Assembly (NCBI GenBank): GCA_026770585.1
Contig: MU646315.1
Coordinates: forward strand, 548,204 to 571,157
Direction: 5' to 3'
Source of the DNA: Baffinella frigidus
Taxonomy: Eukaryota; Cryptophyceae; Cryptomonadales; Baffinellaceae
DNA: 22,954 nucleotides
Part shown: positions 639-22,870 of the stretch, piece after piece
How the letters are laid out: every line of letters begins with the position of its first letter
Position numbering within the stretch: position 1 is the first letter of the stretch
The notes under the pieces: model-generated
Told to the model about the DNA's origin: nothing
The model's database searches: none
Seen by the model: the letters and a program-made list of their open reading frames with translations, nothing else
Translations under genes and position numbers: made by a program

Positions 639-656
639 GCTTACCATCGAGCCCTA
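639..656 (+). pseudogene. Degenerate copy of exon 1 start
   Basis: After ggcag, gcttaccatcgagcccta resembles the first 18 bases of exon 1. It breaks off into heptamer sequence. Short, so only moderately secure. Confidence 0.5.
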
Positions 657-683
657 ATTCCTAAACCCGAAACCCTAAACCAG

Positions 684-758
684 GCGTACCAGCGAGCCGC
701 GCTAGATCCGCAGATCTTGGAGGTGTATGAGACTGTCATGGAGGACTGGTGCACTCAG
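684..758 (+). CDS. Dynein heavy chain exon 1 (residues 1-25 of the partial product)
   Basis: Opens [10 protein letters not shown] and ends VMEDWCTQ, the tryptophan-centred helix of DHC_N1 that precedes the variable lL.es segment. Acceptor is aaccag, donor gtatca, phase 0 at both ends. The 3' end and the start of intron 1 recur at 866-918. Confidence 0.85.
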
Positions 759-3700
759 GTATCAAGCCTCTCCTTTCTTGTTTTTGCAGGTTATGAGCCT
801 CACTGTTACACCCCGTTACAGTCTATACAACTACGTGAACATCCATGGTACAGTCTACCGTACAGGATTGGTGCACTCAGGTACTGCGCCTCTCTTATTT
901 TTGCAGGTTTTGAGCCATCACTTGTCAGGTGGTGAGGCTCAGGGGCAGTCTAGGGGGTTTAAGATTTAGGGTTTAGGGATAAGGGTTTACGGTTTAGGAT
1001 TTAGGGTTTAGGATTAGGGATTAGGGTTTAGGGTTTAGGGTTTAGGGTTAAGATGAGGCTCAGGGGCAGTCTAGGCCGCGTCACGCAGACGTGGTCATTC
1101 ACTATGTACATGATTTTCCGTGGCGCGCCTAGAGTCAGACGCGCCACGTGCTTGACAACGATTTTGTGAATTTGACACCGAACGCGGCAGTGCGAGGCGC
1201 TGCTAGCGGAGAGCTTCACTCACTTTCAGTGGCTTACACAACCTGGTTTTGCACCAGAAATATTTTAGATGGACGCCTAGCGAAACATAACTTATTCTGG
1301 GCTGGTTCTAAATTCGGTGACATTCAATTCGGGGATACGTGGTCAACGCTTTCGCCTACCGACATCCTGACGCAAGTGGGTGATACACAGTGCGAGATGC
1401 TGCTGCCGGAGAGTACCACGACGGAAGAGGTGGGAGAGGGAGTGGCAGCCCTCCCCCTCTTACTGGCATGAGGCGTGTTTTCTGGGAAAGAATCTCATTC
1501 TGAGAATTAAGTGTAGGCGGACTCCCACGTGTGGCCTGACGCAATTCGGTGATACAGTGTGAGGCCCTGCTGGCGGAGAGCACCACGACAGAGGAGGTGG
1601 GGGAGGGGGTGGGCCCGGACACGGAGTTCGAGTTCTGGCGGAACCGCATGGCTAAGTTCAACTCGGTCCCACACCCTCCCTCAACCCTCCCTCAACCCCG
1701 AACTCTGAACCCTGAACCCTGAACCCTGAACCCTGAACGTTGAACCCTGATCCCTGCACCCAACCTTGAACACCCTAGACTTTGGCCTACACCCTAAACC
1801 CTCAACTCTAAACATCAAATCCTGGACCCGAACCCTGAACCGGACAACGAGTTTAAGTTCTGGCGGAACCGTACGGCCAAGTTCAACTCGGTGAGTGGGA
1901 GAGATATCCGATCCCTGAACCCTGAACCCTATCGTTTTCGTGGTCATACACCCTAAACCCTAAACTCTGAACCCTAAACCCTGGCCCTTAAACCCGGCTA
2001 TCTCAAATTCAACCCTTAAACCCTGAATCCTGAACCCTGAACCCTGAACCTTGAACCCTGAACCCTTAACCCTGAACCCTGAACCCTGAACCCTGAACCC
2101 TGAACTTTAAACCCGAAACCCTGCACCCTCAGCACTAAGCCCCACACCTTATACCCCGAACCCCACACCCCAAACTCCAAACCCTAAACCCTGAACCAGG
2201 TGGCAGAGCAGTTGAAGCAGAGTGAATGCCGCTGCGTGATCGGCGTCGTCGGACAGGTGAGGTGTGTTATGGTTGAGGGTTTCTAGTTGATTGTTTGCTA
2301 TTTGTTGTTGTTATTATTATTGTTATTATTATAATTATTATAAATATTATCAGTATTATCTTATTTTGGATTTGTTTTTAGGGTTCAGGCTGCAGGGTTC
2401 AGGGTTTCGGGGTTTTGGGTTTCGGGTTTCGGGTTTCGGGTTTCGGGTTTCGGGCTTTGGGTTTCGGGTTTAGCGAACCGGGAGGTGCAAGTGCTGAACG
2501 AGCGACCCTGTTGAGCGACCCTGTTGAGGTCGCGCGTTCAGCACTTGCACCTCCCGGTTTGCTAAACCCGCAACCCGCAACCCGAAACTCGAAACCTAAA
2601 ACCTGAACCCTGAACGAACGGCCAACAGGGGGAGAGCAAGTTCGTCAAGCGTTGGAAAGTCTTAGATAACCGGACCACCGACTCGCTCAATATTTGTTTC
2701 TGGCAACGAAAATTACTACACAGTTGGGCCATACTAGTATTAGTAAAGCATTTGTGTAGTAATTTTCGTTGGCCATAATCAAATATTTTGATTCGTTTTC
2801 GCAATCAAAAGTGCTGATCGAACGACGTTTGGCCTCACCAGGGGAAGAACAAGCTCTTGACTTTTGACGTAGTATTTTCATCTCCGGTGCGGGCTCGTTC
2901 TTGAGGCTCATAGCCATTGTATCACTCAACTCAAGGCTAAAGGGCCTATCTAGGACCTGTTTCGAGAGTAATAAAGAAGAAGAAGAAGAAAACTCTTGAA
3001 GCGCTGGAAGGTGGTCGACAACCAAATTACTGATTCCCTCAACGACGCCAAGTTTCACTGCGGACACCAACACACCAATCACTTTCTACCAACGAAAATT
3101 ACTACACTACACATTCGGGTCATACTAGTAAAAGTCAGGTGCTTGTGTAGTAATTATCGTTGGCTAGTAGCTAATATGTTGATCGTTTCTGGAATTGAAA
3201 TTGGTGCGCGGCCTCACCAGGGGAAGAGCAAACTCTTCAAGCGCTGGAAAGTTGTGGACAACCAAATCACCGACTCGCTCAACGAAGCCAAGGACAACGT
3301 CAAATACCTCTCGGCCCTCGAACGTTACACGGAGCCGCTTTACTCCGGTTCTCCCCGCCTCCTCACCTCAGAGGTTCTAGCTCTGCCTCAGTTGGGTTGG
3401 CTGACTATTCTGAAGTTGACATGCTGGGCGTATGGTGCAAATCCGTCAACTTTGGAGCGGAAAAGGACCCGATCTCACCATATTGGTGAGACCAAATAGA
3501 CTGAACCCATCCAGAGCTTGTCTGAGATCTCCTCGACTTCTCACGCGCCCTCCCACGGAATAGAGCTTTTCTGAACCGCTGTTGACCTTCGCTGTTGACA
3601 TTCGTTGACTTCCGCTGTTGATTTCCGCTATTGACTTTGGGCTGACGACTTTTCGCGTGTGTGTTGACTTTTGGCAGGCACGCCCGCGACGGTGGTCGAG

Positions 3701-6700
3701 GCTCTTCCCGCGCTGATGAACAACATCAAAATGATGCTCACCATCGCACGATACTACGGCACCCCCGCTCGCATGACGGTCCGTTCTACTGAACCCCTCA
3801 ATTTTGGAAAAGTCTTGGCATTGCTTCACCAGCTCCAATTCCCACAACTTTGGGCGAGTTTTGATTTGGGGTTTGCCTTTTACCCCAGCATGCTACCTTC
3901 TGGTACACACCTGTGAACTCGTACCATTATTGCGTTATTTTTGCGCCTAACTTCTGTGCACACCGTGCAAATTTTGAACAACCTGAACACGGACACCGTG
4001 CGGCAGGTGCTCTTCATCAAGCTCACGAACCAGATGATCTCCAACTGCAAGTCGAGCATTGTCCGCCCGGTTCAAGGGGGCCCTCCAGTGAAGATGTGGG
4101 ACCAGGACATTCCAGACTTGCTCACCAGACTCCGCGCCGTCCTCAAGCTCCACGAGGCACTGCCCCTGAACTCCAAACCCTACACCCTACACCCTACACC
4201 CTACACCCTACACCCTACACCCTACACCCTCAGCCCTCAACCCTCAACCCTCAACCCTGAACTCTACACCCCGAAACCTACACCCTAAACCTTAAATCCT
4301 ACACCCTAACCCCTAACCCCTGAACCCTGAACCCTAAACCCTAAACCCTAAACCCTAAACCCCAAACACTCAACGTCAACCCACAAAACAGTGTCGCAGT
4401 ACCGCGCGACGAAAGAGAGGCTGGCCGCGCAACCCAAGGGCAAGCAGTTCGTCTAAACCATAGTCCTTCTTCCAGCCTCAAGTGGACAGACCGATGAGCC
4501 CCTCATCGACGGGGGCTCACAGTTTAGGGTGCAGGGTTCATAATTTCATATTTGCACCGGTGCGAAGTTATGAACCCTGAACTCTGAACCCTGCATCCCA
4601 CACCCTGCAGGTGTACGTGTCGCAGTACCGGGCAACGAAGGAGAGGCTGGCAGCCCAGCCAAAGGGCAAGCAGTTCGACTTCAACGAGACCGCGATTTTC
4701 GGACAGGTGGAAACCTTAAACCCTAAACCCTTAACCCTTAACCATAAACCCTAAACCCTAAACCTTACACCGCAAACCCTAGACCCTAAACCCTATACCC
4801 TATACCCTATACCCTGAACCCTACACCCTATACCCTACACCCAACACCCTAAACCCAACACCCTCAACCCTAACCCCTAACCCCTCAACCCCAACCCTAC
4901 GGCAGTTCGACCTGCTGTGCAAGCGGGTGCAAAAGCTGCTGGACATGTTCACGACAACAATGCAGTTCTCGTCCCTCTCGCTGCACCGCGTCGAAGGACT
5001 CGAGGTCCCGTCCCCTCGCAGTCTATTTGGGCTCACAGATTTGGTGAACCCGGGCTCCTTTTCGAGGGATTTGTACCGCAGATCTAGCATGTCAACTTAG
5101 GAATAGCCAGCCAGCGCGTTTTTTGCAGAGCTAGGCCGCTGGACATGTTCACGACCGCGATGCAGTTATCACAAAGAACTGCATTGTGGATTGCGTAATG
5201 CAGAAAACAAACGTTGGAGGAGGACCTATTTGGACGCGACTTGGTACACAACTCACAATGCATGGCTTTTTAACCCATTAAAACCATGATTGTATTTTTT
5301 GTACTGGAGTCACGTCCAAATAAGTCAGCAACTAACGTTGGTTTCTGGGACAGGTTCTGATCCAGAGGTTCTTCGACATCATGGTGGAGTTCAAGCGGAA
5401 GCCCTACGACCTCCTCGACTTCTCGAAGAACGCCTTCGACCGCGACTACTTAGAGTACACCGTCAACATTGCGGAGCTCGAGCAGCAGGTGACGAGCCTC
5501 AACCCTCAACCCTCAACACTAACCCCTATGTCCTCAGCCCAAAACTGCAAAGAGCGTCGAGCTACGGTTGACTGATATGCTGGTGATGAGCCTCGAGTTG
5601 ACTGATATATGATGTTGACTAATATGCCTCAACTCTCAGCCCTCAACCCTGTACACTAACCCTTATGCCCCAAACCTCAACCGCAAAGAGCGTCGAGCCA
5701 CGGCTGACTGATATGCTGTGTTCTATGCGCACCCTGTCCGGTAAAGTCACATGGTGTGGCCATCTCAAGTTCCCTGTCAACATTGCGGAGCTCGAACAGC
5801 AGGTCATGAGCCTCGAGTTCACTGATATGATGTTGACTGATATGCCTCAACTCTCAACCCTCTACTTTATACACTGAACCCAATCTCCAAACGGCACCAG
5901 AACCTGGCGCCGTTTGGCCGTGCTCGGTCCAGTCAAAGACTCGAGTGTAGGGTGGACGACCCAATTTCCGGCGTCAACCTAATGCCGGCATTCCGGCAGC
6001 CTGGCCGGTTTTTGAGCATGCTCTGCACGTTGATCGCTGACATGGCAGTTGCTTTACAGAAGGAGTTGCTTTACACGCGTAATTGCTTTACAGTCACCTG
6101 TCGTGGCTACCTTGAGAGTGTATCGCGAATGTCGCTGAGCTCGAGCGTGGTTGACTGATCCCTGGGGTTCCACGAACAAACCCCGCCTGGTTGAGCAATC
6201 GCCCCTGTACAAACGCGTCCCGTTTAGTCAACAAAGTTTCCGTTGAGCCAAACGTTTCCGTTGAGTCAACAATCGCGGGTTTTGTTTGTTCGCAGGTCCA
6301 GATGTTCATCAACCTCTCTTTCGACAACATTCTCCGCACCGAGCAGGCGCTACCCCAAACCCCAAACCCTAAACCCTGGTCCCTGAACCCTCAACCCTGA
6401 CCCCTAAACCCTAAACCTCAAACCCTCAACCCTCAACCATATACCCTACACCCTCAACCCTGAACCTTCAACCCGCCATCCTCAACCCTCAATTCTAAAC
6501 CCTAAACCCTACGCCCTAAACCCTAAATCCTGAACCCTGAACCCGAAACCTAAACCTTAAAACCCCAACCCCCCCCCGAGAAAGTTACCCGATTCCATCT
6601 TTTCCTGGTACCAGCCATGCCCGATGTAGTCACCAGTCAACTGCATCTTACCCGGCACGCCCCCGTAAGGCGGTTGACTGATCACATATTTTCCTGGTAA

Positions 6701-9700
6701 TGAACCTGCCGGCTTGGTCATCCTCCTGGTACAAAACCCGCGCGGATCAGTCAACTGCATCTTACCCGGCAGGCACTTTGGGAAGAGTTTGTGACTTGAT
6801 GGTACCACACGGTGGGCGTCGAGAGTTTCGTTGGGCCTGGATTCCAGGGGGGTACGCGACCAAATTGCACCAGAAAATCTCTCAAGTTAATTGCATCAAG
6901 CCAAGTTGACTTTTGGCGTAAGGTTCGTAGTCCACCGTGTGGCTAATGAACCTTTCCCTCCTCAACACCGTGCAGGCGCTCTCCCTTCTCAAGCAGTTCG
7001 AGGACATTCTCACGCGCGACTCCCTCAAGGTTGCGAGCCCCCATTAACCATGAACCCTGAACCCTGAACCCTAAACCCTAAACCCCAAACCCCAAACCCT
7101 AAACCCTCAACCCTGCGCCCTAAGCCCTAAACCCTCAACCCTCAACCCTCAACCCCAAACCCTAACCTCCAAACCCCAACCCCCCACCCCCCCACCCCAG
7201 GCGGACCTCGACAGCAAGTACACAGTCATCTTTCACAACTACGGCCTCGACCTAGAGGCGGTGCATAGACTCGGGTTGACCGATCGTTTTCACACCAACA
7301 GTTGACGAATCACAACACAGGGAAACCAACTTCCGGTCTTCCTCATTTAACGCCCCCCCCATCCCACCAGGCGGACCTCGACAGCAAATACACGGTCATC
7401 TTTCACAACTACGGGCTGGACCTGGAGGCAGTGCAACGGCTATACGAGCGCCAGAAGAGCCAACCGCCCATGCTGCGCAACGCCCCGCCGGTAGATCCCA
7501 CACCCTACACCCTAAACCCTGAACCATGGACCCCAACCCCCAACCCCCAAACCCCAAACCCTAAACCGTAACAGGTGACGGGGAATATCCTGTGGGCGAA
7601 GCAGCTGTTGCGGCGGATTGAAGAGCCGATGAAGCGCTTCAAGGTGCCCCACCCCACCCTCACAACTCGTCGGTAGCTCGTCCTAGAGGAGGCCATCCAC
7701 CCACAACACCCTTAGAGGATGAAACGCGTCAAGGTAAGGGTGGAGCCGATGAAGCGCTTCAAGGTCCTTGAAGCGCTTCAAGGTCCCCCAACCCGCCCCG
7801 AAAACACCCTTCAAGTGTGTTGCCAGGAGACACGTTCTGGCTTGCTGCTCGGCGCGACCCTCGGGCACGCTGCGGGCATCACCCTAGGGCACGCTACATC
7901 ACCATCTACGAAGCTACGGCCCAATTCCATAAAAGCTGTTGCGGCGGATTGAAGAGCCGATGCAGCGCTTCAAGGTGCCCCACCCCACCCTCACAACTCT
8001 CTTCGTAGGCAGCTCGTCCTAAATGGGGCCATCCACCCACAACACCCTTAGAGGATGACACGCGTCAAGGTAAGGGTGGACTCTGTACTTCCTGCATCAA
8101 CCTGATTCCGGCATTCCGTAGAGTGCTACCGCAGGCAATACCGTAGGGTGATACGGAATGCCGGAATGAAGAGGTTCAAGGTGCCTCATCCCGCCCTCAC
8201 AACTCCCTTCACCACAGTTCCCAAGGAGATTTTGACCGCAAATCTGGTCGACATGCTACCGTAGGCAATACCGTAGGGTAAGGATGGGGGATGCAGCGCT
8301 TCAAGGTCCCCCATCCCGCCCCGACAACACCCTGCAAGTGGGTTGCCAGGAGACACGTCCTGGCTTGCTGCTCGGCGCGACCCTCGGGCACGCTGCGGGC
8401 ATCACCCTAGGGCACGCTACATCACCATCTACGAAGCTACGGCCCAATTCCATTTCTCTGCCGTTCCCACCCGTTCTTAACCAACAAACCCCCCAAACTA
8501 GGTGCCGTATAGTTGATGGTGAAAAAGCCGACCACTAATGTACGGTGCATGGTATGCCGCTGCTGGCATGAAAAGAAAACGACGACTGATGTATGGTGCA
8601 TGGTATGGCAGGCGCACACGAGCCTGATGCAAACATCCAAGGAAGCGCGCAAGATCATCAGGCGAGCCCCCCCCACAGAGCTGCTTGCCTAATCATCGAT
8701 GATTAGTGTTTCCTGGTGATCCAACCATGTTTGGTATTAGTCAGTTCGTATTTATTTATTATTGATCTAGGAAGCGCGCAAGATCATCAGGCGAGCCTCC
8801 CCCGCACCACTGTTTCCCCAAACCCAGCTTTTCCTGGTACCAAACATATCCGGATTAGTTCCCGTCATGGCCGGTACAAACCACGCCAGCTTATTGGAAG
8901 GGGTCGCCAAAAGTCAATATAAAGTCCAGATACTTTCTGGTCGAAATGCTACCGTAGGCAACAAGAGGGGATTGCTTACTTTTGGGATAGTTGAACGCCA
9001 AAATTGGCGTTCCCAAAGAAAGCTACCCCCTCCAGCAATCTATCGTGAAACCCTTCCCCTTTGCCCTTAACACCGCTTCACAAACACGTGATACCGTCTG
9101 GTACACACCCCTCACCTTTTGCAAGTTCCAGAACCGTCAACTTTTGACGCCAACCCCTCAACCCCAAACCCCAAACGCAGACTGTACAACCAAGTGGCGC
9201 GGGCGCTGGTCGAGTTCCAACTTTACCAGTTGAAAGTTCCAGAACCGTCAACTTTTGACCCCACACCCTAAACCCCACACCCTCAACCCTGAACCGTACA
9301 CGCAGGCTGTACAACAAAGTGGCGCGGGCGCTGGTGGAGTTCGAGACGCTGTGGCACAACGCGTGGGCACGTTCCATCGAGGCTGCCCGCTCCGGCTTGC
9401 AGGTCCCCCCTAATCCTCCGGGACTTCACCCCCCTCACTGACCGGGACTTCACCCCCCTCACTGACATCTGGCCCCCTCAACCCTAAACTCTCAACACTC
9501 AACCCCAACCTCTGAACCCTGAACCCCAACACCTAACCCCCACGCCCTAAAACGCTTTTTCGAAACCCATGATCTCGAGTTCCTCTCTCATCTGGTCCCC
9601 TTCACCCCAGATGTCTCACTGACATCAGGTCCCCTTAACCCTGGTCCCTAAACCCTCCACACTCTCAACCCCAAACCCTGAACCCTGCACCCCAACACCT

Positions 9701-10672
9701 AACCCCCACACCCTAAAACGCTTTTTCGAAACCCATGATCTCGAGCTCCTCTCTCGAAGATGGGAATCTGCCACATCCTCGACCAAGCCCTAAACCCTAA
9801 ACCATTTACCCCTAACCCCTAAACCCTCAAAACCTCAACCCTACACCCTAAACCCTACTGACGCGTGGGCGCTTGACCACAAGCAGGAGACGCTGATTAT
9901 CCAGCACCTGAAATGGCTCCAACTTAACGGGGTTTTCTCAACGGCTCCAACTTAACGGGTTATTCGGCACTGACGGGTTATTCGGCACTCCCGGCTCCGC
10001 AGGCGACGCTCATTATCCGGCACCCGACGACCGGGCGGCTCTTTGTCAACTTTGACCGCGAGATCCTGCAACTTATCCGCGAGACCAAGCTGCTCCAACG
10101 CTCCAACGTGACCCCTAAACCCTCAACCCTAGACCCCGAATCCTAAACTCTACACCCTAAACTCTAAACCCTAAACCCCAGACCCTGAATCCTGAACTCT
10201 TAAACCTCAACCCTAAACCTTTAAACCCTCAACCCTCAACCATGTGCTGCGACACTCGACCCCCTGGCCCTACCTCAATCAGGTTGTCTGACTATTCTCG
10301 ATTAGTCAAGAGTGGTCGACTTTTCCTAATGCAAAAGCTACCCTGTTCATTTTTCCTCCTGGTACAGTTTATTTAACAATCGCGGGGGGGTGAGTGAGCA
10401 TGTGGATATCTGAAGGATGCAATTTGTTGGACACCCATAAAGATCTGAACCATCAAACATCAACCCCAAACCTTGAACCCTAAACCCTAAACTCCTGCGC
10501 AGGTGGATATTCCGGACAATGCGCGAATGGTGCTGGTGCAAGAAGACAAATTCAAGAGCTACTTCAACCAGCTCTCCTTTGCGCTTCGAGAATACGAACG
10601 CGTCGTTGACCTCGTGAGTTTCCCTCCTCAGACTGTGTTCTACAGAGAACACCGTCTCCTCAGACTGTGTTA

Positions 10673-10715
<43 letters not shown>

Positions 10716-12480
10716 ACTCTCTCTCTCTCACTCCCTCTCTCTCTCACTCCCTCTCTCNNNNNNNNNNNNNNNNNNNNNNNNNNNNNNNNNNNNNNNNNNN
10801 NNNNNNNNNNNNNNNNNNNNNNNNNNNNNNNNNNNNNNNNNNNNNNNCCTCTCGCTGTTTTTCTCATGGCATTTATGTCGCTGACTTCCCCCCTCTCTCC
10901 CTTGGCAGGTGAACCCAGCAGTGCGGCCACTACTCACGCCGCACCTCAACGACCTCGACGCGAAGATCATGCCGGGGATGGTGCTCCTCACATGGCAGAG
11001 CATGAACATCGATTCGTACCTCCAACGCATCCACGCTGGTGCCTCCCTATCCCAAAACCCCAAACTCCAAACCCTCCGACCACCACACCTCAACCTTGAC
11101 CCTCAAACCCTAAACCCACGCACCCACCACCGCCGTACCACACCCTAACCCTTAGACCCTAAACCCGTACCACACCCTAACCCTCAGACCCTAGACCCTA
11201 AACACAAACCTCAAAACTCAAACCCTGAACCCTGAACCCCAAACTATCTGCAGCGCATCCACGCTGGTGCCTACCACCACCGCACCTGGACCCTAAGCCC
11301 TAAAATCTCAACCCTCAACCCTCAACCCTCAACCCCAAACCCCAAACCTCAAACCCCAGACCCCAAACCCCAAACCCCAAACCCTAAACGTGTCCGGGTT
11401 GCTCCCCGAGCAGGGTTGTCGCGGTTCGAGGAGCTAGTGCGAAGGGTGACATCCTCCTTAAGGGAGGTCATGCGCATGAGGTTTCCCGGGAACCTCAGGT
11501 CATGAGCCTGAGGTTTTCCGGGCCGCTCCCTGGGAGAAACGTGTTTCTGAGGCTCGAAACCTGTGCAGGACTGTCGCGGTTCGAGGAGCTAGTTCGAAGG
11601 GTGAACGACATCCTCGAGAACCGCGTCGAACAGAACCTCAAGTCCATCTCCAAGGTATTCACACGTGCAGTTGATTTCCTGGCACACATCACCTCGAAAC
11701 CTTGCAACTTAAACCCTCATTCTACGCCAAGTCAATCTCCAAGGCATGCATTCACAAGTAAGGGTTGACGACCACATTTCCGGCGTCGACCTATGTCTGG
11801 TATTCCTCTGGGTGCTACCGTAGGCAATACGGTAGGGTGCTACGAAATGCCGGAATTAGGCCGGAATTAGGAGCTGGTGGGAAGGGTGAACGACATGCTC
11901 GAGAAGCGCGTCGAGCAGAACCTCAAGTCCATCTCCGAGGTGAGCATCGAGCGGGGACGCCCGTGCCCGTATGCAGGACGGCCAATGTGGGAGAGGTCTA
12001 TCACTCAAGTGGCCAGGGGGTCAAATTTGACCGCCAAGAGGTCCTAGGCAGGTCCTAGGGCCATACGGTAGGGCGTATGGGCCTGCTGGCCACTTAAGGG
12101 ATACGGGCGGGGCCAGAGGTGTCACGGACGGTGCTGCCGCGGTGGAGGTGGCAAGGACCGCTGATTCCAGGGGTGGGGGCACGGCTCATGGGGCACGGTT
12201 GGGTGTCATCAACCGGTCGGTGCAGCGACGCAGTCGATCGCGGACTTGGGCGGCCATACGCCTTACACCATCCGCCCTAAACTCTAAACCATATCCCCTC
12301 AACCCTCAACAGTACCTTCAACCCTCAATTCTCAACCCTCAACCCTCAATTCACAACCCTCAACCTAAGACAAATCCCCTGAACTCTGGACCCTGAACCG
12401 AAATCAGGCGCTACTGGTCGAGCTTCCATCGGACGAGTCCTTCACTCTCGAGCAGTACTCCCCTCAGCCCAACCCATCAC

Positions 12481-12512
<32 letters not shown>

Positions 12513-15500
12513 CGTATAAGGCTCACGATTAGGGGAAAGTGATCATCTTACTAACTGCGCACCGTTCGCCGGATAGGACTGGGCTCCATTCCAGACATCC
12601 TAGCCCAGCTCCCTGCACCCACACTGTTGATGTTTTCCTTCGAGGGTCAGTGTAGCACGCACATGGGTAGTCCCTTTTCGATTCTTGGATCATTTCGCAT
12701 ACGGTATTTTCTACGGTTGGTTCGAAGGACTTCTATCAAGAGACGCGGTCGTAGCATTTGTAGAACCTACCCGACTCAGCACCGCATGCAAACAAACTGA
12801 AATCAAAACAGTGACATGATTAGAAAAAGTTTCAGTGTGCTCGAAACAGTTTTCTGATTTATCTAGGGCGCAGACATCGAAACAGCTTCCTGATGAGCAT
12901 GCGGGGCGCAGGTTCGTGACGGTGCAGGAGAAGACAACCAAGGGCAAGACCGCGATGCTCGACCTCAAAAACGTACGCTCTTCAACCCTCAACCCTAAGC
13001 ATACATTTTACGTACATTTTTACATTTTACGTGTTACGTGCATTTTTCGTGCCCCCCCCAAAGAAACGTGCGCACTGCCCGTGATCCTGCCCGCGAACCC
13101 TACCCTGATGTGAGCCTTCACGGACATGTCAGCATGTCATCTGTTCCGTCTTGAAGCCGGGATACGCACACCCGCATGCACACCCGTTCCCACCCCCGGA
13201 CGAAAACCGCCCGATCGCGTCCCAATCACGTCCTTGCCACGTCCAAGCCACGACCTGATCACGACCGGGTCAACCATATGGTCGCGTCCCAGTCAGGTCC
13301 TTTCCACGTCCTTTCCACGTCCTTCTCACGACCTTCTACGCCCTTCCTACGACCTGATCACGACTAGAGCACGTCTTGAACACGTCCCGATCGCGTCCGA
13401 AACAGGAGAAAGTGGATCGTCCCCGTTCCACTCCCCGGACACAAACCACATAGTCGCGTCCTTCCCTCGTCCTTTTCACGACCTAATCACGACCTGGTCA
13501 CGCTGGTGTCACGTCCTTTGCACGACTTGATCACGACCCGACCCCTTTTCGCAGGAGGAAGTGGAGAGGGCGCTGCGGGACGTGATGCACCTCATCTCAG
13601 CATATCCTCTCGAGACGGAAGAGACGATTCCAAGACACGCGATGTTCGAGCTCTGGACTATGTAACCCCGCCCCCCCCCACCCGGAGGCGAAAAGGTCCA
13701 CAAAAATGACATGAATCTAAATCATGTCTTGAGTCTTTTTGAACCCTAAACCCTCAACCTTCAACCCTAAACTCTGACCCCACACCCCAAACTCCAAACC
13801 CCAAACCCCCAACCCCCAACCCCGAACCCCCAACCCCTAAACCCCAACCTCCAACCTCCAACCCCCAACCCCCTAACCCTAACCCAGGTAACCGAACTGC
13901 TTCTGGGTGGGGCTTCGAGCACTGAAACCTTAAACCCTGAATCCTAAACCCCACACCCCAATCCCCTAACCCCTAACCCTAACCCAGGTACTCAAATAAG
14001 GCGTACATGTCGATCCTGCGCTGCACGAAGCAGTCGTTCTTCGCGCTCAAAAAGCGCCTCGCGGCCCGCGGTTCGAGCCCCCCGCACGAGGCTACTCAAG
14101 CACCCTTTTTACATGTCGATTGTAGGCGTTGTGTACGGAGTTGGTCACGTGTACCCCCGAAAAGCGGGGCGACACGTGACCAAACACATAACAATTACTA
14201 CACCTGTCTCACTTGTACAGCTCTCCGGGATTTAAAGTGGGTGCTTGTCGATCCTGCGATGCACGAAGCAGTAATTCTTCGCGCTAAAAAGGCGCCTCGA
14301 GGCCCGCGGTTCGAGCCCCTGAGACACCTTCTAGCTCTGCCTCACTTTGATTCTGGCTCGTCCTGACAAGTGTTAAGAGCAGAAATCCAGTACACAAGGG
14401 CGAATAGGAAGCCTTTAGGACGAGCCAGAATAAAACTCCGGCAGAGCAAGACGACTTGTTTTGAAACAAATTGTTGCCCTCGACAAGGCGAGGTTAGTAG
14501 CACGCCATTCCCGCTCCAAACCCCCGAAAGAAAACAGGGCCTTTCTGAAGGATAAGTTCCAGAGTCCACCTATGTTGGGAGTTAAAAGAACCCAAAGGAC
14601 CTGAGACGTGTGGACAAGAAGATGTCGAAGAGTCACCCACCCAGAGTCGTATATTACCAAGTATACGTATACTAAGAAAACAATGTGTCTCACAGGGGGC
14701 ATCGCCGGCCTGCTGTACGTCGAAAAGCCGTTCTTCAATGTGGATATCGAGCTGTCGCTCCCGCTCGTTACCATGAACCCGTCGTTGGACGAGATCCAGG
14801 TTTGTGCTCAAATGTCACTATGGGTTTAGATTGCGAAGCGTCCAGCCCTGAAACACTTGAATCAGATCAAATCGCCTCTACGCTCCAAAAAAGTCTAAAA
14901 AGGGGGTACGAAATCACAACAGGGGGTGAGGTAGAGGCGATTTGATCCGCTTCAGGTCCAAAAACAGGTTTCAGGGCTGGACGCTTCCGTTCCTAGGTTG
15001 TGTGGACGGACGTCATTTGTGTTTTGTGTGGCTACCTCCCAAGAACCCCCCCCTCATGTTTGTCTCGACGGGCTTGTGAACCGAATTGTGGCCGACGCGA
15101 TTTCAATGTGATGCACGTTGTGCTCCCGCACAACTCCACGGGACCCCCCTGAACTGCCACGAACAGAGGACTGCACCCCCCCTGTTTGTGACCCACTCTT
15201 CTGGAGTCATGTTCGGCACGCCATTTGAAACAGGAGAGTGTAACACGGGGTGGGGTCGACCAGGTCATGCAGAAAACCAACGTTAAAGCAGGACTTACTT
15301 TCTTGGACGCGACTAATTACTAAATTTGAAATTGATGGCTTTACAACCCATTTTTTAAAACGGGTGTGATGGTTTGTACCAGAGTCGCGTCCAAATAAGT
15401 GCGCATCTAACGTTGGCGTTGGGCATTACAGGGGGCGGTCAACCGGTGTGCTTTGAACATCCTGCGGTGCTCATGAAACCCTGAACCATAAACCATCAAC

Positions 15501-18500
15501 CAATTTTCACGGCGAGTGGTAGGACGGGCCTGGCGCAGTTCACACAGTTTAATCTCGAAAAGGGATTTCATATAACAAACATTCATGGCAGGGGGCGATC
15601 AACCGATGCGCGCTGAACATCCTGCGGTGCTCCAAGTCCATCTACCAGTGGGCCCCGACGCCCGTCCCCGTTCCGCGCACCGATCGCGAGACCTTCCACA
15701 GGTTATGCTCCTCACATTTCTTCCACAGGTTCCGAGCACCGTAGTTTAGTACTGGAATTGGAGAATTAGTACTGGAATTGGAGCCATTTAATTGGGAATT
15801 TAGTGCTGGAATTGGAGCCATTCAATTGGGAATTTAGTGCTGGATTGGAGCCATTCAACCGACTATCAGGGATGCTGGTACAAAACACGCGAGACACCCA
15901 GTTAGCGGTTTGCCCCCGACGCCCGTCCCAGTCCCGCGCACCGATCGCGAGACATGCTAAAGGTTCCGAGCCTCAACACCTGATGCTCAATCGCCACTGT
16001 TGAATCGCCACTGCGATAAAGGAGATTCAATCGGTGCACGCAAGAATTGAAAATGAGTCGGTCCACACGAAAAGGGAAACTGACTCGGTCCACACAAAAA
16101 CACCGCGGCGGTCTGATCGCTGGAGACTACCAAATCGTCGCGGTTTTCCTGATGCCCACCTGCGCAAATCTAGTTCCAAGGATGGGTCCAGAGCGGTCTG
16201 GTAGAGCGTGGCCAATGCAAAAACGGAAACTGAGTCTGCTGTGCACGCAAGAATCGGAAATGGGTCGGTCCACACGGAAATCTCAAACCCTGAACCCGTG
16301 CAGGCTGATCGCTGGAGACTACCAAATCGTCGCAGTCTGCCTGATGCTCACGGGGGCTGTCGAGGGGACCAAGAAACAGGTCAACCCCTAAACCCTAAGC
16401 CCTGAACCATGAACCCTGGACCCGAAACCCTAAACCCGAAACCCGAAACCCGAAACCTCAAACCCTTACCCCTAAAACCTAAAGCCTGAACCATGAATGC
16501 GATACCCTCAGGTGCACGACTATCTTCTGACGTTCATGAACTACGACTTCCTGTGGAAGGAAGACCGCCAGAACACGTACTCCTCCCCCAACCGCCCCCC
16601 ATGTGATAGCATTCATAAGCCTTGTACCCCCCATGCGAAATTCTGCAGAGTCCCGCAAAATCCAGTTTATCTCGAGCTCTGGTTCTTGACTCCGCGCGAG
16701 TCAAGAACGCCACGGGGTGTACTTTTTGAGACCATTGGGTGTATTCGTCAAAAGGATACCGGGTCAGGTGTTGGTGACGGGTAACACTTGGCGGCAGGTA
16801 ACACATTGGCGGTACGTAGCACATTGGCGGCACGTAACACATTGGCGGTAGGTAAGACATTGACGGCAGGTAACACATTGGCGGCAGGTACCACGTTGGC
16901 GGCTTAACACCCAACCACTGAACCAGGTACAAGTGGTTCGCGCAGACGAAGCCGACGATCGAAGACTTTGAGCGCGAGCTTCAGAAGTATGTCGAGGTAC
17001 GGGCACAGACCTCCCAACACCCTCACGCTACACCCTCAGGCTACACCCTCAAGCTACACCCTCACGCTACACCCTCACGCTACACCCTCAAGCGTTCGAT
17101 AAGAACCAACAACCAAGAACGGAACATCCAGTAGTTGTAGGTAGCTTCCGTACGACGATTGACGAATCCACTCGTGTTCTGTTCCACCATATATCCTCCC
17201 CCCGACCCGAAGGGAACGCTGTAAGCTCTTCGGAAACTAGTTAGTACCTGGTTCAAGCTCCTTGTTTTGTCCTTGAATCCTTTAGATGGACGCCTTGCGA
17301 AACATGATGTATTCTGGGACTGAATCCGCACCCACCATTGCAGGTGACCGCAAGACCGCGTTTGGGAATTGGAGCCCTTTGGTTGCGCTACTATGTGTTT
17401 TTGTACCACGAAACACTTTTAGCGCGAAACGTTGCGTGTGAAATACGCACTCATGTCCTGGCGTGGCTTTGCAGGTGGAGCAGCGGATCGCGTCGATCCA
17501 GGAGCTGAACACCATCGGCTGCCTCGCGCTCAAGACCGCCCCGCTCAAGGCCTCCCTCCGGACGGAGGTAACGACTCCCCTCAACCCTAAGCTCTGAACC
17601 CTAAACCCTAAACACGAAACGCAAAACCATGAACCTTCAACCCTAAACCCTTGCTCAAGGCTTCGCTACGGACCGAGTTCACCCTGATACCCGAAACCCG
17701 AAACCCGAAACCGGTGCTGAGGTTCCGTTGCGGCGCAGGACTGTTTTTTCACACCGTTTCGCGGTTGAGTGAAGCGTTGCGTTCTCTTGTCCGCAGTTGA
17801 GTGATTCGTTGCGTTTTCTTGTTCGCTGTTGACTAAACAGTCGCGGGTTTCTTGTTTGCAGGCGGACATGTGGAAGCAGCTCTACTCGGACAACCTCCTC
17901 GCTGAGGCCCAGGTCGTCACCCCCTTTTTTCTTTTCTTTTTCTCTTTTTCCTTCTTTGAGCACCTACTCCTTCTCTTTTTTCTTTTTTCTTTTCTTTGTA
18001 TCGTCCTCACCCCTGCCTCTTTTCCTCTTTTCCTTCTTTGAGCACCGACTCCTTCTCCTTTTCCTTCTTTTCTACTTTATTACTCTCAAGCCTAGCATTG
18101 ATTGCTATGGTCGAAATGGGCTTCGCGCGGAATCGAGGTCAGGTCAGGAAATCAGGAAATTTTCCGAAATGGACTTTTATGCTATCTTAGGCATGGTTTT
18201 TATCTCAAAATAGCATCTCCCACCCATAAGATGACACAAAAAGGCAAAACAATAAAAAAATGTTGCCGACCTGACCTCGATTTTTTCCGCGCGGAGCCCA
18301 TTTCGACAATTCAGAGTTTATCAGCCGATGAGCCCGGCGCCGGAGATTTCCGCATCTTTCCACTGACGTACGGCTTTCCATAAATCGCAGGTTGGGCTCA
18401 AGGGGCTGACGGACTACATGGTGGACGTGGACCAGCGGTTGGAAGGGGAGTGCCCCGATCTCGACACCGTCCGCGAGATGATGACTGTGCTTTCTGAGGT

Positions 18501-21500
18501 CTGCCATCCGCCCCCCTACACTCCACCCGTCCCACGGCGTTCCAGCGCACACCCTATTTTGAATATTGTTTTTGGCCCGACGGTTCCCGATCAGATTCCC
18601 AGCTTGGGAGGGTGGCAGGTGTGCAACGTTGCGCGGTTGAGTTGTTTTGGGGCGGTTTTGTCAAAGGGTGTTGGGCGGGGGCAGGTGAGAGGGAAGGAGA
18701 CAGACATGGAGCTGGACATCCAGCCGATCCAGCGCAAGTACAACCTCCTCCTCAAATACTCGCGACAGGTGATCCATCTGCCGAACCCTCGCATTCCCTG
18801 CCATCTAGCTCTGTCTCAGTCTATTTGGGCTAACCAATGTGGTGACCCCGGGCTCTTTCCCGCTCCAAAGTTGATGGTTTTGTACCGCAGACCCAGCTTG
18901 TCAACTTTTGTATAGTCGGTCAACCTGAGTGAGGCAGAGACATCCAGCCGATCCAGCGAAAGTACAACCTCCTCCTCAAGTATTCGCGACAGGTACTCCA
19001 TCCACCTCCTTAAAACCTGAACCCTAAACCCTAACCCCAACCCCTAAACACTCACCCCTAAATACTCAACCCCAAACCCTAAATCCTAACCCCCAAACCC
19101 AAAACCGTAAAGCTTAAACCCTAAACCCTGTACTCGCGACAGATCCCAGATGAAGAGTTGGCGGTGGTGTTCGGACTGGACCTGCAATGGTCGCAGGTGC
19201 CCCACCCCTCCCGCTTTCCTCCCTCCCTCGTTTCTCGACGCCCCTCGCTTGAAATCATGCTCGTGCCTGTCTCTCTCATACACGTCAACGAACGCTAGGA
19301 CCGTCCTACGACCTACCGAAGTCACTACCACACGCTGAACTACCCTAAAATTAGGCCGTCGCCCGATTGATGTTTTGTTGTTTGCAGATGTTGTTGAAGG
19401 CGCGGGATACGGCAGACAACCTCAGCTAACAGCAACACAAACTCAAGAATTTATGAGGGCCGAGGGCCTGTTCACTTAGCATGACGGCTCGGTTAACCCT
19501 GAACCCTAAACTTATTTTTTCGCAGGTTGTGTTGAAGGCGCGGGATGCGGCAGACAACTTGAACCAACAACAACACGATCTCAAGAACCTGTTAAGGCCG
19601 AGGGCCTGTGTTCGTAGAATGATGGCTCGTTGCACTCGTTTACGTAAAATACTGGCTCGCTGCCCTCACCACTCGAATTATGTTTTTTGCAGGTTGTGTT
19701 GAAAGCGCGGGATGCGGCAGACAAGCTGAACCAACAACATCTCGAACTGAAGAACCGCCTGATATCCTATCAACATGAAATCATATCCCGGCATTTACGG
19801 ACGATCGGTTGAACTGACTCGTTTGTTTCGCAGGTTGTGTTGAAAGCGCGGGATGCGGCAGACAAGCTGAACCAACAGCAGCACGAACTCAAGAACCGCC
19901 TCCAGAACGACGTCCGCGCCTTCACTGCAAAGGTTACAACCCTTCTGAAACGATTTAAAAAATACCCCCACATTTGGGGTAATTAAATTAACGGACTTTA
20001 GGCGAGGGCCCGGCTCTGGGCGAGGGGACGGATCTCCGAATTTCCTGGTACATTTTTTTTTGAAATCGTTTCATAAACCCGTCAGCGAAGTAGATCCCAA
20101 TGTGAAGCAGCAGCAACACGAAGTGAAGAACCGTCTCCAGAACGACGTCCGCGCCTTCACTGCAAAGGTCAGCCTCCCCTAAACCTTGAACCCTGAACTA
20201 ACACTCGTGCATAAGAGGTTCATAATCCTAAACCCTGAACCCCCCTAACACACGTGCACAAGGTTAGGTACCTGAACCCTACACCCTGAACACTAAAACC
20301 TAACTCCTGAAATCCAAAACCTGAACACTCATCCCTGAATCCTGAACCATAAACTCTGACCCCCAAACCCCACACCTTAAACCCTAACCCCTAAACCCTA
20401 CCCTCCCCGAAAAGGTGAAAGCGTTCCGGACAGACTTTGAAGCCAACGGACCGATGGAGGACGGTGCCACGCCCTAATCCCCTCACCCCAAACCCCACAC
20501 CCTAAATCCTAAACCCTGAACCCGAAAACGAACTCCCTAAACCCTAAACCCTAAACCCTAAAGCCTACATTCCAAACCCCAAACCCCAAACACCAAACCC
20601 CAAACCCTAAACCCCGAACCCTAAACCCTACACCGTACACTCCAAACCCCAAACCCCAAACCCTAAACCCCAAACCTCAAACCCTGAACCCTAAATCCCA
20701 AACCAGGAATCACGTCCGACGAGGCGGCCAAACGCCTGGAAAAGTACAAGAAGGTGCTGATCCTGCCACGCCAGAGGGCTCGAGGGAAACCGACGTTTTG
20801 TCTACGCCAGATCTGGCGTCTTTGACTTAGAGTTCTCTGGGGATTCTCCCTGAATCAAGTCACAAGCGGACGTTCGAGCCCTGGACGGTGCGACTGTTGA
20901 CGTATTGCATGCAGTAGCACCCTACGGAACTCCGTGATTAGGTTGGTGCCGGGAACAGGTCAAAGGGATTAGTCAATGGTGGTGGTGACTCTGCAGCACC
21001 AGGTCCCTGCGTAGCCCGTTGTGTGGTGAGTCGATCGGGGCGCATGAAAACGTTCATACTGCAAGTTGATTTCCCGAGGCTGCGTGTGGCTGACTCAGAC
21101 TTTCGCGTTTCGCAGGTGTACACTAAGTTCGAGGACCAGTGGCGCACGCTCGCGGACGGTTCATCCCTAAACCCTAAACCCGAAACCCGAAACCTTAAAC
21201 CCTCAACCCTCAACCCTAATCCCCAATCCCTCAACCCAAAACCTAAACCCTAAACCCTAAACCCTAAACCCTCACACCTAAAACCTAAACCCTGGAAGAT
21301 AAACCCTAAAACCTTAACCCTAAACCAGGCGAGAGGCTCTTTGGTCTCAAAGTCACGCTGCACCCTGAGCTGGAGGTCACCCTCCCTACACCCTCCCAAC
21401 ACCCTCCCTCAACTCTCTCTCAACCCTCCCCACACCCTCCCTCAATCCTCTCTCAACCCTCCCCATACCCTCCTTGAACCCTCCCTCAACCCGCACACCC

Positions 21501-22870: not shown

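Follow-up and report, generated by a model that had tools for sequence, protein, structure and literature searches.

Truncated exon copies in the introns of an outer-arm dynein gene of Baffinella frigidus: possible by-products of failed repair from a diverged allele

In the 5' half of an outer-arm dynein gamma heavy-chain gene, a flagellar motor gene of the Arctic single-celled cryptophyte alga Baffinella frigidus, 23 of 41 exons have partial copies in an adjacent intron. To judge from the nucleotide differences, copy and exon seem to be different coding alleles, as if the piece, together with the adjoining intron, had been derived from a diverged homologue. We tentatively suggest, at somewhat less than an even chance, that the copies are by-products of a failed recombinational repair, with a diverged allele of the gene as template and end joining as the final step. 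The observations comprise the anatomy of the copies, their direct orientation and closeness to the exon, a coding-type divergence, the loss of similarity in the flanks of most copies and the recurrence of the pattern further along the gene. Among the matches listed in a literature search, which included few subscription journals, no title or opening of an abstract described such a gene with exon fragments.

The dynein gene and its introns

The window, i.e., the whole stretch of DNA which was analysed, has 22,954 bases (C13:548204-571157) in a searched assembly of 382 Mb. The published genome, of strain CCMP2293, is given as 534.5 Mb with 41.1% repeats, obtained from Illumina reads with the assembler AllPathsLG (PMC9756366). 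The gene model comprises 41 exons on the plus strand (684..22870) which cover DHC_N1, a coiled-coil and the start of DHC_N2. The exons sum up to 3452 nt; the median length is 83 nt for exons and 467 nt for introns. When translated and stitched together, the exons match Pfam DHC_N1 (E 4.5e-160), and the top match among solved structures is 7kzm_C, a dynein gamma chain of the flagellar outer arm of Chlamydomonas (E 2e-302). Domain and best match thus identify an outer-arm dynein gamma heavy-chain gene. It continues for about 10-30 kb past the end of the window, where motor peptides again match 7kzm_C best (E 5e-11).

The nearest protein is P0001, a predicted dynein of B. frigidus. It agrees with the exons of the window except at the alignment ends, yet it starts in exon 8 and reads into introns at several places. 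This is a warning for gene finders; the BUSCO value reported for the published genome is 72.3% (PMC9756366). The edges of exons 5, 6, 13, 19, 20, 24, 36, and 38 are unsettled. Seven of these exons have no AG right before the modelled start (exon 6 has AA), and the donor of exon 20 as modelled is TA. GC donors follow exons 6, 10, and 14.

The window contains a variety of repeats. Telomere-like heptamers (CCCTAAA and variants) are distributed one-sidedly, with 230 C-type against 14 G-type units in the gene body (684-22954) and one C-type against 12 G-type units upstream of exon 1. At least three C-type units are present in 24 of 40 introns, and at the acceptors of exons 1, 3, 23, and 28 some AGs lie directly in a heptamer run, e.g., aaccctaaaccag. 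The heptamer resembles a branch-point motif, and its strand bias could originate from this. At other loci the C:G ratios are 162:1 (L016), 3:170 (L018), and 3:74 (L032, with a dynein relative on the minus strand); less one-sided are L025 (63:30), L023 (92:16), L012 (16:69), L003 (6:13), and L022 (31:3). The dynein relative, C65:245529-250565, located in part in L032, is remote (20-24% identity to P0001), and its open frames, of 172-354 aa, contrast with the short exons of the gene in the window.

Introns also harbour short hairpin elements of two families (2689-2787 and 3083-3165; 5195-5344 and 15264-15429), which have inverted ends and resemble non-autonomous DNA transposons. A dispersed repeat of about 100-130 bp occurs five times and on both strands (3377-3504, 5016-5134, 18806-18939, 21597-21710, 21784-21897). 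Intron 3 carries an imperfect palindrome of 84 bp (2476-2559; 82% self-complementary by BLAST), and intron 27 a tandem repeat with an 18-bp unit (16770-16931).

Anatomy of the partial copies

Each of the 41 exons was aligned with 42 segments, i.e., the 40 introns and the two ends. A score of at least 30 was attained by 25 of 82 pairs of an exon with its own flanking segment, representing 21 exons, versus none of 1640 other pairs, of which the maximum was 29. Exons 1 and 18 score 29 in their own flank, identical to this unrelated maximum; their own best scores elsewhere are 20 and 24, and with flanks added they reach 54 and 42, respectively. The own-flank pair of exon 28 is also top-ranked, but its score of 22 is in the background range. 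The resulting 23 exons are exactly those for which a preceding sequence-only reading had listed copies in the flanking introns. Because the copies exist only beside their own exon, a roaming element, i.e., gene capture by mobile elements, is an unlikely source.

A search with exons plus flanks, in direct orientation only, gave 34 hits at 24 exons. A 15-nt match inside exon 6 was discarded, and 33 copies remained, all on the plus strand, 18 upstream and 15 downstream of the exon. All 18 upstream copies represent the 5' part of the exon with the acceptor, and all 15 downstream copies the 3' part, as a rule with the donor. A whole exon is present in none of the 33. In 32 copies the similarity reaches the outer splice boundary within 7 nt; the exception is the copy of exon 8 which stops short of the donor. 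Missing are the last 26-84 nt of the exon in upstream copies and the first 16-108 nt in downstream copies. The spacers between copy and exon measure 73-530 nt in the 32 copies which approach the splice boundary. The sequence-only reading had described blocks which span one splice site, break in the exon and leave one complete exon; this anatomy proved right.

The upstream copies belong to exon 2 (1188..1214, 21/24 exonic nt matching; 1366..1445, 45/55), exon 4 (2623..2690, 50/62; 2982..3052, with all 10 mismatches at the third codon position and none at positions 1 or 2), exon 7 (4391..4454, 56/64, seven of eight mismatches silent), exon 12 (7178..7265, six of six silent), exon 15 (9147..9217, 34/37), exon 16 (9883..9911, 21/25), exon 19 (11410..11456, with a 4-nt deletion), exon 25 (15429..15472, 36/41), exon 26 (16113..16159, 43/47), exon 34 (copy A, 19378..19449, with an in-frame stop; copy B, 19515..19589, 58/64; copy C, 19685..19760, 64/68), exon 39 (21749..21785, 32/35), exon 40 (22088..22154, four of four mismatches silent), and exon 41 (22531..22549, 14/14; 22647..22691, 27/30). 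By eye, copies A and B of exon 34 have a common truncation, as in a secondary duplicate.

The downstream copies belong to exon 1 (864..915, 16/17), exon 2 (1840..1892, 44/51), exon 8 (5135..5170, 31/36), exon 9 (5768..5814, 31/35), exon 13 (7743..7765, 21/21; 7934..8019, a young copy with the intron flank duplicated too), exon 14 (8769..8806, 22/22), exon 18 (11245..11275, 19/22), exon 19 (11869..11941, 64/71), exon 23 (14246..14319, with an in-frame stop), exon 25 (15914..15965, 43/49, with an in-frame stop at the end), exon 29 (17653..17677, four of four mismatches silent), exon 32 (18939..19002, three of three silent), exon 34 (copy D, 20103..20169, 59/65), and exon 38 (21502..21535, 21/23). 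Including the exon, up to five versions exist for exon 34 and four for exon 2. In-frame stops thus affect copies of exons 23, 25, and 34, and frames are broken in copies of exons 4 and 19. Additional short pieces of exon 13 and, by eye, a piece of exon 1 near 639 are outside the 33.

A self-comparison was carried out on both strands. An overlap of at least 10 nt with an exon was found for 30 direct pairs, but for not one of the 16 inverted pairs. The distances are 60-624 nt, one overlapping pair aside, i.e., the copies are direct and nearby as in a plain tandem duplication. The same preference prevails when all BLAST pairs up to 600 bp are counted: the ratio of direct to inverted pairs is 49:3 in the window and, pooled over seven other readable stretches, 158:9, where an eighth stretch with 366 readable bases is left out and the exon content of the repeats is established for the dynein gene only.

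The copies might be an artefact, i.e., an assembly mosaic in which pieces of a diverged haplotype or of a paralogue were laid head to tail by the assembler. The genome was assembled by AllPathsLG from short Illumina reads (PMC9756366), and two haplotypes would display a coding-type divergence combined with different introns. Yet the 22,954 bases contain a sole N run (10758-10847, next to a CT-rich microsatellite) against 33 copies, five versions of exon 34 and four of exon 2 exceed two haplotypes, and stops or broken frames are present in some copies. Further, the breaks are in exons beside unrelated sequence, where a k-mer assembler would presumably have no overlap. The single N run, the five exon versions and the in-exon breaks make a mosaic less likely, and we regard it as improbable. 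Misjoining at heptamer repeats, as considered in the sequence-only reading, is rejected, as the breaks read fall inside exons, many beside non-repeat sequence. Retrocopies of a spliced mRNA are equally rejected: the copies carry AG or GT plus a few of the intron nucleotides next to their own exon, and none continues with the sequence of the neighbouring exon.

Divergence of exons and intron flanks

Over 1434 aligned exon sites, copy and exon differ at codon positions 1/2/3 by 28/19/107 mismatches (479/481/474 sites). Of these 154 mismatches, 99 are silent, 54 change an amino acid, and one is located in a split codon; pS is 0.30 and pN 0.049. Without the four copies of exon 34 the mismatches are 21/17/89. 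In 22 of the 33 copies, more mismatches are at the third position than at the first and second combined; the numbers are equal in four copies, the third position has fewer in four, and three copies have no mismatch at all. Among the 33, twelve lack any amino-acid change although their pS is 0.35.

These numbers bear on the possibility of a plain local tandem duplication, in which a block spanning one splice site was doubled from the same chromatid or its sister and the copy then decayed neutrally. In that case changes accumulate at every position of the dead copy but only at silent positions of the exon; therefore, at most about half of the mismatches are predicted at position 3. Observed are 107 of 154 (P = 7e-7 against one half; the test takes sites as independent and counts the copies of one exon separately). 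Further downstream in the gene the picture is the same. Seven pairs differ by 11/10/48 (pS 0.39, pN 0.062; P = 0.0008 against one half), and the four pairs in which the match to the solved structure confirms the frame by 7/8/27. The seven were selected from 17 local pairs because both members are dynein in one frame, a choice which was not blind since some of them had been noticed by their phase.

Controls without exons behave differently. In eight ungapped exon-free repeat pairs of the window, some of which overlap each other, the best phase contains 41 of 91 mismatches where 43.4 are expected (P = 0.86), i.e., a period of three is absent. It is present in 14 ungapped pairs with exon (62 of 92, 48.6 expected, P = 0.0002). 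Annotation-free periodicity was clear for the remainder of the dynein gene (P = 0.0008) and for 25 pooled pairs from other loci (P = 0.004), but modest in the window with exon and intron pairs mixed (P = 0.006); it was absent from L003, L018, and L022 alone (P = 0.13). Base composition does not explain the excess: a neutral rate derived from positions 1 and 2, with a correction for GC-rich third positions, predicts 26 mismatches at the third position from changes in the copy alone, and about 52 if the exon changed silently as fast, versus 107 observed.

When the age of every copy is left free, a fit with average site fractions yields a shared silent divergence before copying of about 0.22 (0.18-0.28) and rejects a value of zero (2 x log-likelihood difference 52). 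As a further control, exon-34 copies A and B, which are both dead and duplicates of one another, show 6/1/4 differences. The copy of exon 4 at 2982 has seven private changes, all at the third position. Over all copies, the private changes amount to 16/5/21, which is less strongly biased (P = 0.019 against one third). Exon-private changes number only three, all at the third position, which makes a fast-evolving exon alone a less likely explanation. It is excluded only in part: in exon 34, many silent differences are common to several copies and absent from the exon, hence part of the change occurred on the exon's own line.

Exon 34 also fits an alternative in which a plain duplication was followed by an exon-confined allelic replacement in a very diverse sexual population. 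The copy would then be the older allele, and the same silent excess is expected; crossovers which prefer exons have been reported from a hypervariable fungus (PMC4209137). However, replacing only the exon leaves both intron flanks alike, and they are mostly unlike here (see below). We therefore consider such a later exchange unlikely.

Could the copies be old and still be selected as coding, e.g., for alternative transcripts? A pN/pS of about 0.16 would suggest this if both members were exons. Against it, none of 33 copies has a whole exon with both splice sites, the stops and broken frames named above interrupt several of them, and they are apparently unused in P0001, a predicted protein whose first residues are encoded by exon 8. 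Such a function is highly improbable.

The intron flanks provide a second test. A plain duplication requires a twin of the spacer beside the copy, and since the copies have about 5% change of the amino-acid type, flanks about 90% identical are expected. When 60-nt flanks were compared with simulations, 31 of 32 were below the 1st percentile at 10% divergence, 26 of 32 at 20%, and 11 of 32 at 30%. Without gaps, the identity of cognate flanks falls to the unrelated level at a distance of about 24 nt on the upstream side and 12 nt on the downstream side. The intron bases nearest to the splice sites are more alike than by chance, and in gapped alignments 10 of 32 flanks outscore all non-cognate flanks. 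A duplicate of the spacer is lacking beside most copies. It is found for the exon 13 copy at 7934, where the likeness extends over 147 bp including intron, as in a plain duplicate.

The sequence-only reading had considered the blocks as expected for local tandem duplications. A few copies, i.e., those of exons 13 and 14, do resemble plain duplicates; for most, this view is not supported, given 28/19/107 mismatches and flanks which in 31 of 32 cases are less alike than simulated ones at 10% divergence. As a general explanation, plain duplication is supported by direct orientation, by closeness, by the 207 direct versus 12 inverted BLAST pairs up to 600 bp (window plus seven other stretches), and by the copies of exons 13 and 14 and the exon-34 A/B pair which look so. 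The silent excess and the absent flank similarity in most copies contradict it, and we think it has a low probability.

A possible origin in failed repair

A coding-type divergence of exons combined with a lost similarity of introns is the pattern of two alleles; hence, the piece seemingly derives from a diverged homologue. We propose the following sequence of events. A break would occur inside an exon. One broken end would invade the homologous exon of a diverged allele, the presumed template, and synthesis would exit via the donor, or the acceptor, into the intron of the other allele. There the introns would be too different to anneal, and the extended end would be joined to the other end of the break, presumably by end joining. 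The product would be one complete, spliceable exon, part of it from the other allele, and beside it a truncated copy which retains the outer splice site. Both forms of the copies, and the constant presence of one complete exon, would follow from a repair which begins in an exon, proceeds outward and finishes by end joining. A duplicate next to the presumed break and the retention of one intact copy, both characteristic of failed strand-annealing repair, were found. The alleles would have been this diverged at the time of the event.

Several observations count against repair from a diverged allele. The required silent divergence near 0.22 is extreme, and for exons 13 and 14, whose copies hardly differ from the exon, a sister template is suitable. 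The silent states common to several copies of exon 34, the weaker bias of the copy-private changes and the residual likeness of the intron bases next to the splice sites also count against it. A second allele or a near-identical paralogue was not found in searches with exon DNA and protein; these misses carry little weight because 16 of the 24 examined stretches are wholly N. With exon 7 DNA only exon 7 and its local copy were retrieved, with exon 9 DNA only exon 9. P0001 had 30 matches: 26 on the contig of the window, three with 20-24% identity on C65, and one with 67% over 36 residues on C86. A query of 193 aa retrieved no protein with more than 85% identity and none named Baffinella among the best 120 of 139 proteins, most of which are entered without a name.

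If repair from a diverged allele is correct, the introns would store former variants of the gene. With still less assurance, the introns of this alga may even preserve, like fossils, the traces of failed exchanges between hyperdiverse alleles, each copy being a piece of an allele encountered by this chromosome in the past; allelic diversity and sites of breakage of former times could then be read from one assembled sequence. Repair from a diverged allele, if correct, would also link three subjects usually treated separately, i.e., recombination between unalignable alleles, the growth of introns and tandem duplication from unfinished repair, and would make it possible to test by sequence alone for recombination of strongly diverged alleles in a protist.

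The exon-sequence copies within introns recall a mode of intron gain. In intron gain by tandem duplication of an exon segment with AGGT, the copy lies directly after the preceding donor or directly before the following acceptor. None of the 33 copies abuts in this way; the gaps are at least 117 nt in the 18 upstream and at least 141 nt in the 15 downstream copies, and this route was rejected. Tandem exon duplication, as with mutually exclusive exons, is similar insofar as an exon and part of the adjacent intron are duplicated locally (PMC6071210). Mutually exclusive exons, however, are described as whole and spliced, whereas the B. frigidus copies are truncated and possess one splice site; not one of the 33 is a complete exon with acceptor and donor, and this possibility was dismissed.

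In the mushroom Schizophyllum commune, termed the most polymorphic species known (PMC9187340), crossovers favour exons (PMC4209137). As proposed here, exchange between very diverged genotypes is concentrated in exons; unlike here, truncated exon copies are not mentioned in that account, as far as it extends (PMC4209137).

The closest relation is to repair-born duplications. In flies, aborted strand annealing is reported to be completed by end joining (PMC8951532). In helq-1 mutants of C. elegans, tandem duplications are attributed to failed synthesis-dependent strand annealing with polymerase-theta end joining (PMC8654963). The individual parts of the mechanism are known; we infer their combination in B. 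frigidus. The copies would, again with a probability slightly below one half, be a variant of repair-born tandem duplication in which the new element is a diverged homologue as template. As in helq-1 worms, joining of an extended end which did not anneal would leave a head-to-tail duplicate of the copied stretch (PMC8654963). The worm template is described as the sister homologue (PMC8654963), so that the copies should initially be identical, whereas those of B. frigidus differ from the exon by a coding-type divergence. And unlike the situation in helq-1 worms, more than half of the modelled exons of one natural gene carry copies in B. frigidus.
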